Source of the DNA: Firmicutes bacterium HGW-Firmicutes-1
GTDB taxonomy: Bacteria > Bacillota > Clostridia > Lachnospirales > Vallitaleaceae
Length of the DNA: 64,000 bases
NCBI GenBank assembly: GCA_002841625.1
Contig: PHAG01000001.1
Coordinates: forward strand, 248,001 to 312,000
Reading direction: 5' to 3'
The notes under the pieces were generated by a model, which worked only from the letters and a program-made list of their open reading frames with translations, was not told the DNA's origin and searched no databases. The position numbers were made by a program, and so were the translations under genes. Of this stretch, positions 14-32,402 are shown piece after piece. Numbering within the stretch: the stretch's first letter is position 1; each line of letters starts with the position of its first letter.

Positions 14-1135
14 TCAAATTATCCCCCCCCAAACTACACTTGCTAAGGCTTTCGTTATGCTACTTCCAGTTATTATACCCGCAACTGAGTCATTTTCATC
101 TAATACGACGAGATAATCGGACTTGGTTTCAATCAATCTATCAAAAGCATGTTTCGCATTGGTGGTAATCATAACAGTTTCAATATTGCTATCCACAATC
201 GTAGATACCATCTCACCAGGCTTACCATGTGCCCTTATATTTTCAATAGTCACTACACCTTTGAATCTATCGTTGGAATCCACAACAACTGCTGAATTCA
301 ACTCTCTCTGCTTCATGAGGGAAATACATTCAAGCGTTTTTTTGGTCTCTAGTACAATTAATACTTTTTTCTTCATAACATCAGCACAAGTCAAATCATT
401 ATCATTTGAAGAAGAAGTGATTTTCCCTAAAAAGTTACTAATGATTGGATCTGCTGGATTGTTAAGCATCTCTTCTGGTGCAGCTACTTGCAATATTTTA
501 CCTTTGGACATAAATACAATCTTATCAGCCATATTAACCGCTTCATCCATATCATGTGTCACAAATATAATGGTTTTATGTAATTTCTTTTGTAGTAACT
601 TCAGTTCATCTTGTAGGTTTTCTCTTGTAATGGGATCAAGCGCACCAAAAGGTTCATCCATTAATATAATAGGTGGTTCCCCTGCAAGTGCTCTTAGAAC
701 ACCAACACGCTGTTGTTGCCCCCCACTTAATTCATTTGGATATTTATGCGCATTTTCTTCATATGGCATATTCACAAGTTCTAACAGTTCACGTACCCTT
801 TGATTACATCTCTCTTTGCTCCACTTTAACAATTTAGGCACAACAGATATGTTCTCTTCAATGGTCATGTTAGGGAAAAGACCTATTTGTTGAATAACAT
901 AACCAATTTCTCTACGAAGCTCAACTGCATCGATATTCATAATGTTTTTATCATCAATGAAAATAGTACCTTCATCCATTTTGATTAATTTATTTATTAA
1001 TTTTAGCGTTGTAGTTTTACCACAACCAGAAGGTCCAATGAGTACAACAAACTCTCCATCGTTAATTGTTAAGTTTAGGTTATCAATAACTTTTACATTA
1101 TTGTACTTTTTACTAACATTCTCGTAAACAATCAT
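14..1135 (-). CDS. opuCA: Osmoprotectant ABC transporter ATP-binding protein with CBS pair (OpuCA/BusAA-like)
   Basis: ATPase of a glycine betaine/carnitine/choline-type importer. It powers uptake of compatible solutes at the inner face of the membrane. Visible motifs are Walker A GPSGCGKTT near residue 34, signature LSGGQQQR, Walker B ILMDEP followed by a switch His in FVTHD, and two CBS repeats in roughly the last 120 residues. The CBS pair is typical of the osmosensing OpuA/OpuC branch. The start chosen is the ATG at 1135, preceded by AGGAG at good spacing; the frame is open a little further upstream without a ribosome site. The permease genes would lie to the left, outside the window. A palindromic operator overlaps the promoter, and a BusR-like regulator lies upstream. 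A run of eight G residues (minus strand) sits four codons before the stop. The family call is firm; the exact substrate is inferred. Confidence 0.9.
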   Translation of the reverse strand: MIVYENVSKKYNNVKVIDNLNLTINDGEFVVLIGPSGCGKTTTLKLINKLIKMDEGTIFIDDKNIMNIDAVELRREIGYVIQQIGLFPNMTIEENISVVPKLLKWSKERCNQRVRELLELVNMPYEENAHKYPNELSGGQQQRVGVLRALAGEPPIILMDEPFGALDPITRENLQDELKLLQKKLHKTIIFVTHDMDEAVNMADKIVFMSKGKILQVAAPEEMLNNPADPIISNFLGKITSSSNDNDLTCADVMKKKVLIVLETKKTLECISLMKQRELNSAVVVDSNDRFKGVVTIENIRAHGKPGEMVSTIVDSNIETVMITTNAKHAFDRLIETKSDYLVVLDENDSVAGIITGSSITKALASVVWGGII

Positions 1136-1237: not shown

Positions 1238-1276
1238 TGACAACTTAATTTTAACATCAAGTTGTCACATTGTAAA
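1238..1276 (-). promoter_or_regulatory. opuCA promoter with overlapping palindromic operator
   Basis: On the minus strand TTTACA (1276-1271) and TAAAAT (1253-1248) are separated by exactly 17 bases, a good vegetative promoter. A perfect inverted repeat, TGACAACTT and AAGTTGTCA with a 12-base spacer (1238-1246 and 1259-1267), brackets the -10 box, the layout of a repressor site. The adjacent BusR-like gene is the obvious candidate regulator; that link is inference. Confidence 0.7.
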
Positions 1277-1384: not shown

Positions 1385-1415
1385 CAAAAAAAGCACCTGC
1401 AATTGAGATGCTTTA
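1385..1415 (-). terminator. Rho-independent terminator of the GntR/RCK_C gene
   Basis: On the minus strand AAAGCATCT pairs with AGGTGCTTT (one G-U pair) and is followed by a run of T. It separates the regulator gene from the opuCA promoter, so the transporter has its own transcript. Confidence 0.7.
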
Positions 1416-1475: not shown

Positions 1476-2099
1476 TTAATTATTGAGGTACCCAATAATA
1501 CGTTCGTATGCATTCTCATCTCCAATAAATATAAAAATATCTCCTTCTGTAAATAGCGCATATGGACCGGGAGAAAGTATAATCTGCCCCTCTCTTCTAA
1601 TGGCTATAATCGTAGCTCCCGTATTCTGCCAAAAATTTACTTCTGCAATAGTCTTTTCTAAGAGCTTACACGAATTACCAATGCCAATTTCAATTGGTGA
1701 AAAGGGATTCGTATTCTTAAATCTTTCAGAAAAATCTATTAGTTTGTTGATTTTTAATTCTAAATCTTCATTCATTTTTCTTTTATTTTGAATTATGGTT
1801 AAAATATCCTTCTTGATATAATTCAAGGAATCTATGTTTTTAAATTTTTCTATAAATTTATATGCATCGTTTCTTGATTTCACAACTATTCCGCTTCCTT
1901 GATATACCTCAACGATAAATACATCCTCTAACAATATAATTGCTCTGCGTATAGTTTCTGGCGAAACATTATATTGACTTGCTAACGTTGATCTCCCATG
2001 AATCTTTGATCCGACTGCAAATTCCCCATTCGCTATTCTATTTGCTATATCAATTGCTATTTGTTGATATAAAGGTTTTATGATTTGTTCCTCTGGCAT
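1476..2099 (-). CDS. GntR-family regulator with C-terminal RCK_C (TrkA_C) domain, BusR-like
   Basis: A 207-residue protein with an N-terminal GntR winged helix-turn-helix (about residues 8-75), a short charged helical linker and a C-terminal TrkA_C/RCK_C domain (about 120-207) that carries the usual GATIIAI...SPGP...GDIF pattern. This architecture and length match BusR of lactococci and streptococci, a cyclic-di-AMP-responsive repressor of the busA betaine importer. Here the next gene downstream is the ATPase of just such an importer, which supports the same role. The start at 2099 is preceded by GGAGG. It lies 39 bases after the rRNA methyltransferase gene and may share its transcript. Ligand and target are inferred from family and context. 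Confidence 0.85.
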   Translation of the reverse strand: MPEEQIIKPLYQQIAIDIANRIANGEFAVGSKIHGRSTLASQYNVSPETIRRAIILLEDVFIVEVYQGSGIVVKSRNDAYKFIEKFKNIDSLNYIKKDILTIIQNKRKMNEDLELKINKLIDFSERFKNTNPFSPIEIGIGNSCKLLEKTIAEVNFWQNTGATIIAIRREGQIILSPGPYALFTEGDIFIFIGDENAYERIIGYLNN

Positions 2100-32045: not shown

Positions 32046-32053
32046 AATTTTAG

Positions 32054-32402
32054 TGGAGGTGAGGGGAATTGAACCCCTGTCCGAAGACCCTTCCGATAGA
32101 TTTTCTCCCATTAGAGTCGGTGTTTTGTCATTCCCTCGAAAAGACGCCCATCGACAGGCTTAGTTTCTTGGTAGCTTCATTTAATCTTTTTTTATCTCAA
32201 AGCTTTGATAAAAAAGTGCCTCGCATTAGTTGATGCCTAATTGCCTAGCCGCGAGTGGCGAGGGTTAGACAGCTGCCATTAGGCAGCGAATTGTAAATTA
32301 TTTTCTGCGTTTAAGTTTAATTTTCCAGTTTTTAACGCAGGCCCGGAGTCTGCGAATGGCTTATCTAAATTCAGTCGTCCCCGTCGAAACCAGTACACCC
32401 CC
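32054..32402 (-). ncRNA. ssrA: tmRNA (ssrA)
   Basis: Rescues stalled ribosomes together with SmpB. On the minus strand the 5' end GGGGGTG pairs with CACCTCC at the 3' end to form the acceptor stem, followed by discriminator A. The CCA tail is not encoded (CTA instead). The T-arm GGTTCAATTCC and a 5' TGGTTTCGACGGGGA block are conserved tmRNA features. The tag frame most likely resumes at GCA (32308) and reads AENNLQFAA then TAA (32279), placed about 95 bases from the 5' end as usual. A tyrosine integrase lies just beyond the 3' end, and smpB lies just upstream. Confidence 0.93.

Follow-up and report, generated by a model that had tools for sequence, protein, structure and literature searches.

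The BusR repressor of Streptococcus agalactiae binds two sites that share the motif 5'-GAC-N22-GTC-3', one of which overlaps the -35 and -10 elements (Bandera 2021, PMC8517857). As described in that report, the four experimental BusR sites, which come from S. agalactiae, Lactococcus lactis and T. halophilus, are all spaced by 22 bp, and binding is prevented by loss of an arm, by the addition of 5 bp or by the removal of 10 bp. Cyclic-di-AMP improves the KD of S. agalactiae BusR from 577 to 5 nM (PMC8517857). BusR of L. lactis (Romeo 2003 and 2007, known through the papers that cite them) responds to ionic strength in its in vitro binding (PMC10243994), and in L. lactis IO-1 the further targets arsC, hom and thrB have been predicted (PMC7051946). 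BusR-type regulators have already been noted in clostridia (Devaux 2018, PMC5919688; PMC6108528), and their occurrence there is not new as such. In Dehalobacter, a tandem Na+ and cyclic-di-AMP riboswitch is located on the gene for lysine 2,3-aminomutase; control of acetyl-beta-lysine by cyclic-di-AMP is therefore already known by another device (PMC9337991).

Here we describe a BusR locus in a window of 64,000 nucleotides, the whole stretch of DNA that was analysed, from Firmicutes bacterium HGW-Firmicutes-1. The locus is like BusR-busA/busAB of S. agalactiae in the domain order and ruler length of the regulator, in the GAC-N22-GTC motif, in the placement of the candidate operator, which overlaps a promoter for an importer of the betaine type, and in a predicted cyclic-di-AMP pocket that retains most of the published residues. 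It also resembles the BusR system of another clostridium, Clostridioides difficile, where cyclic-di-AMP and BusR reportedly control the uptake of compatible solutes. The regulator is of the same type as L. lactis BusR, a repressor of betaine uptake with an RCK_C/TrkA_C domain (Pham 2018, PMC6108528). Several features differ from those reported for S. agalactiae. In the window, busR adjoins its target, whereas the two are 655 kb apart in S. agalactiae (Devaux 2018, PMC5919688). The predicted target is an opuC-type operon of four genes rather than busAB, and its promoter carries one operator rather than two (PMC8517857). In addition, among the relatives of the window the half-site recurs as a longer sequence, TRACAACTT, unlike the S. 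agalactiae motif.

A candidate operator on the promoter of an opuC-type operon

The candidate BusR operator, TGACAACTT-N12-AAGTTGTCA, occupies positions 1238 to 1267 (no strand assigned). It consists of a palindrome that is perfect over 9+9 bp, and it carries GAC at 1239-1241 and GTC at 1264-1266 with 22 bp between them, in exact agreement with the published 5'-GAC-N22-GTC-3' (PMC8517857). The sequence-only reading had proposed an operator in the form of a perfect 9-base inverted repeat whose arms flank the -10 box, and had suggested a comparison with known BusR sites. The palindrome is real and its arms lie as proposed, but the operator is better described as a bipartite GAC-N22-GTC ruler site. 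It is the sole match to the palindrome at up to three mismatches in the 64-kb window, where 0.06 matches are expected.

A perfect 9-bp inverted repeat alone is weak evidence. When the 340-bp gap between busR and the importer gene was shuffled 1000 times, such a repeat arose in 149 cases, and the real gap holds two such pairs. GAC-N22-GTC, in contrast, was present in just 5 of 1000 shuffles. The palindrome carries weight as evidence because it fits the BusR ruler motif exactly and because it is conserved; given this fit, the compensatory conservation in the genus mate and the recurrence on busR-linked opu promoters described below, the probability of a chance palindrome, which the shuffled repeats would by themselves permit, is negligible. 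No other perfect copy exists in the genome of the window. When three mismatches were allowed, five places were found versus four for a reversed-pattern control, and the further sites (L002-L004) were dropped because the count is near the control level. The window also holds a second, near-perfect palindrome, TATCATAATCAAGCATGCTTGCTTATGATA at 1341-1370, which lies between the operator and the terminator of busR and is likewise the sole copy in the window.

The operator overlaps a consensus promoter predicted for the importer operon. On the minus strand, TTTACA (1276-1271) is followed after 17 bp by TAAAAT (1253-1248), which carries a TG extension; the pair scores 10/12, in line with the promoter first proposed. 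The feature as noted, which ends at 1276, takes in the -35 element, and the -10 element sits between the two operator arms. Transcription would start at about 1241, inside the second arm.

The first gene of the target operon (14..1135, minus strand, ATG at 1135) encodes an opuCA-type importer ATPase. It matches TIGR01186 (proV) with 385.5 bits against a cut-off of 326.6 and contains two CBS repeats (PF00571 found twice). Beyond the window (L019, 6032-3835) are two permease-like ORFs and an ORF resembling a substrate-binding protein, all three named by reading alone. The initial identification of an osmoprotectant importer gene was borne out, and the predicted target is an opuC-type importer operon of four genes, whose ATPase belongs to the proV family and whose genes 2-4 are named by reading. 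Its exact substrate would be betaine, carnitine or choline. In OpuCA proteins from other sources, CBS repeats are a site for cyclic-di-AMP (PMC10243994), and those of the importer ATPase may provide a second layer of cyclic-di-AMP control.

A scan calls the palindrome terminator-like on the minus strand, with 12 pairs of which 3 are G-C and the tail GTTATTTTTG, as would be expected if transcription from busR ran on into the gap and the palindrome acted in that RNA as a hairpin, either an attenuator or a terminator. We consider this highly improbable. A terminator-like hairpin for busR already exists at 1390..1414 on the minus strand, downstream of the gene and before the importer promoter, and with a start inside the second arm the importer mRNA would be without the hairpin. 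In the genus mate (G002) the arms are kept while the T tail is interrupted, and many relatives hold the arms at fixed distances from a hexamer that resembles TATAAT. Co-occurrence with BusR, described below, is also unexpected for a terminator.

The best explanation of the palindrome is that it is a BusR operator on the opuC promoter, to which we assign a probability of roughly 93%; binding and repression are inferred from sequence. Each GAC/GTC arm would receive one sequence-reading winged helix of a BusR tetramer, with a distance of three helical turns between the two. The tetramer would thereby cover both the -10 element and the opuC start point and block RNA polymerase. By analogy with BusR of S. 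agalactiae and Lactococcus, cyclic-di-AMP would drive the protein onto the site. Under osmotic stress, again by analogy, cyclic-di-AMP would fall, BusR would leave and the importer would be made.

Elsewhere in the window there is a tmRNA gene (32051-32402, minus strand).

The regulator and its signal

The busR gene (1476..2099, minus strand) lies 39 bp behind a methyltransferase gene and encodes a protein of 207 amino acids with a GntR wHTH, a coiled coil and an RCK_C (TrkA_C) domain. PF00392 and PF02080 are both over their cut-offs. Full-length phmmer comparison with S. agalactiae BusR (PDB 7b5t) gave an E-value of 3.8e-43 with 203/203 residues aligned gap-free, and comparison with PDB 7wjg gave 5.1e-47. 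The sequence-only reading had called the neighbouring gene product a BusR-like GntR/RCK_C protein, and these matches agree with it. The window protein is a full-length homologue that is colinear with the structurally solved BusR, and we regard its fold as settled by its sequence identity to that protein. The ruler from the wHTH to RCK_C comprises 113 residues between landmarks, the same as in relatives.

Six DNA-contact positions were mutated in the structural study (PMC8517857). Taking these residues from the 7b5t alignment, with the paper's numbers inferred to be the chain number minus 2, R38, R53, G70 and G72 are identical in the window protein, K54 is replaced by R and K36 by H. The published cyclic-di-AMP pocket is identical at 8 of 11 positions (I153, N157, W159, A164, T165, I166, G180 and P181) and differs from that of S. 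agalactiae by G154A, V158F and H160Q. Among relatives, F occurs at 158 in 76/82 proteins and Q at 160 in 53/82. The genome (G000) encodes one protein with a DAC domain, the domain of cyclic-di-AMP synthases. The pocket and the single synthase gene suggest that the window BusR depends on cyclic-di-AMP, in keeping with the osmotic cyclic-di-AMP switch that was first proposed.

The site could also bind BusR in this lineage in response to a signal other than cyclic-di-AMP, such as ionic strength or K+. This idea draws on the in vitro behaviour of L. lactis BusR (PMC10243994) and on the three pocket positions that differ in the window protein. The eight retained positions speak against it, as does the DAC protein, and no cyclic-di-AMP riboswitch that might serve instead was found in the genome; we therefore think such a signal unlikely. 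Autoregulation of busR by the same type of site was rejected, as the best pair upstream of the gene scores 13/18 at N25.

The genus mate and the history of the regulator

Among the 22 family genomes searched, a single other genome (G002) belongs to the genus. Its orthologous opuC operon (L087, ATPase 88% identical) is not beside its busR gene (L021). The opuC promoter of this genome retains TTTACA and both arms, GACAACTT/AAGTTGTC. In its operator the outermost pair is A-T on both sides instead of the T-A of the window, and the 12 central bases have diverged. We read the change of the outer pair as compensatory. The pattern as a whole is the one expected of a site contacted by a protein at two arms, and mere linkage would not explain it.

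BusR of the window shares 66% identity with the protein of Clostridium prolinivorans (L107, in the same tree group), which is among the best 80 of 323 relatives, and 40% with that of the genus mate. For the ATPase and the first permease of the importer, identity to the genus mate is 85-88%. The regulator, rather than the transporter, looks exchanged, yet the operator is the same.

Sites on opu promoters of relatives

BusR was found at E <= 1e-15 in 14/22 family genomes, in 47/295 genomes of the order sample (incomplete genomes included) and in 68/299 genomes of the phylum sample. Regions around BusR were collected from the family and order samples (first set) and from the best 80 of 323 relatives (second set). 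Sites were scored to a maximum of 18, with A or G accepted at the second base of each arm, and were called present at 16 or more at spacings of 10-40. Before counting, promoters were dropped if the match started past residue 45 or if they had fewer than 150 bases, as were duplicates within a set; L104 and L106 were taken out of the unlinked group and L068 out of the BusR-negative group.

A site of at least 16/18 was present on 30/37 busR-linked opu promoters of the first set and on 37/55 of the second, two sets that overlap in genomes (for example L035/L153, L036/L155 and L037/L154) and are not independent. The best pairs of the first set were spaced at N22 in 11 cases, N23 in 14, N24 in 2 and otherwise in 3 (27/30 at 22-24 bp), and those of the second at N22 in 11, N23 in 25 and N14 in 1 (36/37 at 22-24 bp). 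Among opu promoters far from busR in BusR-positive genomes, 5/16 carried such a site, all at N22. None was found on 19 opu promoters of BusR-negative genomes, most of which belong to operons of other transporter subfamilies. The single near orthologue compared from a BusR-negative genome (L067, 69% ATPase) is also without a site. Shuffled sets gave 0.12 for the 37 promoters, 0.38 for the 55, 0.15 for the unlinked group and 0.00 for the BusR-negative group. Conservation of the palindrome with the same gene pair, the check first proposed for the operator, is thus apparent on linked promoters of both overlapping sets as well as in the arms of G002.

Many promoters lack a 16/18 site: 25/92 of those linked to busR (overlapping sets) and 11/16 of those unlinked. 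Fifteen of the 25 are at loci with a 14-15/18 pair, which is spaced at N22 or N23 in 12. Second ABC ATPases of another kind seem to account for L033, L036, L041 and L059.

Over entire regions the picture is similar. In all 93,175 bases of BusR-negative regions no 16/18 site was found at spacings of 12-36. The BusR-positive regions (582,239 bases) contain sites of at least 16/18 at N22 (17), N23 (17), N24 (3) and other spacings (13). The last comprise N30 (7), N31 (3), N12 (2) and N35 (1), and the N30 and N31 pairs consist of the -35 element paired with the same far arm.

Four opuA promoters (L022, L023, L025 and L027) carry two 22-bp operators about 35 bp apart, a double arrangement like that of pAB1 and pAB2 reported for S. 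agalactiae. In G290, a single contig carries two busR-opuC copies (L051 and L052) separated by 154 kb. Their matches and site are the same, and they are either a duplication or an assembly artefact.

Genome-wide distribution and Enterococcus

The stringent pattern ACAACTTN{12,14}AAGTTGTYA, searched exactly in the 295 order-sample genomes, matches 22 of them. Seventeen are among the 47 BusR-positive genomes (G000, G009, G010, G011, G046, G057, G077, G086, G107, G120, G153, G194, G225, G231, G261, G270 and G272) and five among the 248 BusR-negative genomes (G014, G053, G169, G175 and G200; Fisher p 2.5e-11, relatedness ignored). The reversed pattern, used as a control, matches 5/295 genomes. Within the genome of the window, the stringent pattern matches the window site and no other place. 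It is absent from 30/47 BusR-positive genomes, including G002, where the site differs in its last base. A looser pattern with spacings of 8-18 occurs in at least 86/295 genomes. Presence of the palindrome without the regulator, named at the outset as evidence against a BusR operator, is thus confined to 5/248 genomes by the stringent pattern and was seen on 0/19 BusR-negative opu promoters.

In the phylum sample, S. agalactiae BusR was the better match at none of 40 loci. Two Enterococcus plasmid records, NC_013317.1 and NZ_CP142821.1 (L258 and L260), have busR beside an opu operon. In both busR-opu gaps TTGACA is followed by GAC-N22-GTC across the -10 region, the promoter being identified by reading. 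The inner bases of the E. faecium operator are unlike the clostridial half-site. In E. faecalis the gap has an extra N20 pair (15/18) followed by T's, which is probably the busR terminator. The two gaps appear to have the same architecture as the window, in Lactobacillales, the order where BusR was characterised.

These distributions also bear on the identity of the binding protein. Linkage alone cannot name the binder, and at L087, L095, L100, L101 and L102 the operator is far from busR, so another repressor that accompanies busR might read the site. However, the GAC-N22-GTC geometry is that reported for BusR (PMC8517857), the site tracks the presence of BusR genome-wide, and it is also found next to busR in Enterococcus. 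We judge a different repressor to be very unlikely, and BusR remains the preferred binder.

Spacing of the operator arms

We compiled 69 distinct sites of at least 15/18 at N22-N24, of which 26 are spaced at N22, 40 at N23 and 3 at N24. Examples that score 18/18 include the window site at N22, L167 at N23, and L049 and L053 at N24. The tally over 138 half-sites is T105 R137 A133 C136 A137 A137 C132 T119 T119 (TRACAACTT); as the sites were chosen by likeness to the window half-site, those with GAC alone, as in E. faecium, are missed and inner conservation is overstated. Both-side GAC..GTC occurs in 11/69 sites and AAC..GTT in 32/69.

Of 82 loci, 28 at N22, 45 at N23 and 3 at N24 have a ruler of 113 residues. 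The ruler is 123 residues long at one N22 locus (L066), and no landmarks were located for two other N22 loci; the rows at N20, N25 and N26, one of each, rest on weak 14/18 sites. Co-variation of the ruler, in which wider spacing would go with a longer coiled coil, was rejected because the length is 113 residues for N22, N23 and N24. The BusR of L066 has a 10-residue insert between the coiled coil and RCK_C and is still beside 22-bp sites. On a BusR tree of 77 rows (a quick tree with long branches, rows at N20, N25 and N26 included) the spacing label switches at least 18 times. An N24 site scoring 17/18 is also present in another class of the phylum (L221).

Natural spacing, as predicted from these sites, varies by up to 2 bp at constant BusR length, with one exception. 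The published tests at +5 and -10 bp neither predicted nor excluded variation between 22 and 24 bp, and we recognised no report of 23- or 24-bp BusR sites, or of BusR control of abl genes, in the openly licensed PMC literature.

Further candidate targets

Candidate operators also precede genes other than those of opu importers. The names of these genes (abl, permease and others) are ones that we presume from similarity and recall, without a family search. At L188, L189 and L192, which are further matches of the stringent pattern, the operator is 63-70 bp before an ablB-like ORF (beta-lysine acetyltransferase), which is followed by lysine 2,3-aminomutase (ablA). It likewise precedes ablB-ablA at L065 (15/18) and L213 (17/18). 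An amino-acid-type ABC importer follows the operator at L190 and L191, and in L190 the importer runs into ablA; at L194 and L195 the operator is before a permease-like ORF. In four further loci (L024, L026, L028 and L029) the operator precedes busR, and an ablB-like ORF (39-40%) is behind busR.

AblB was found in 27/295 genomes, 24 of which also have BusR (Fisher 3.1e-19, relatedness ignored). Among 16 fetched ablA-ablB operons, L213 is the only one with a site of at least 15/18 before the operon. Operator control of ablA-ablB in the window's own genome (L198) was rejected, there being no site of at least 15/18 upstream. This operon has a gap of about 480 bases upstream of ablA, and the locus contains no Rfam family at gathering score. 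Gaps of about 480-620 bases without an Rfam family at gathering score precede ablA at L198, L199, L201, L202 and L206, and these long gaps could hold an unknown regulatory RNA. In one genome (G001, L020) ablA, ablB, busR and opuC are clustered in this order on the same strand, and the operator lies in the busR-opuC gap.

The comparative set may reflect a broad switch, a reading to which we give even odds. BusR of constant length would read 22-, 23- and 24-bp operators built from TRACAACTT, often with AAC for GAC, and in several clostridial relatives would govern importers, ablB-ablA (for de novo synthesis of N-epsilon-acetyl-beta-lysine) and amino-acid permeases. The predicted targets in L. 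lactis IO-1, as reported, do not include abl genes, unlike those of the relatives considered here. The Dehalobacter riboswitch shares the logic that cyclic-di-AMP shuts off a gene for synthesis of the osmolyte acetyl-beta-lysine (PMC9337991). The device there is an RNA, whereas some relatives here have a BusR operator before ablB-ablA, and under the broad switch the BusR protein would do what the cyclic-di-AMP riboswitch does in Dehalobacter.

In the window, a likely osmotic switch of a clostridial lineage that works through cyclic-di-AMP is given an operator that is precise and can be tested. The 22-bp rule is called into question by the comparative set, in which natural 23- and 24-bp sites lie beside BusR proteins of the same length, and with the operators before ablB-ablA the reach of BusR would grow from the import of osmolytes to their synthesis.
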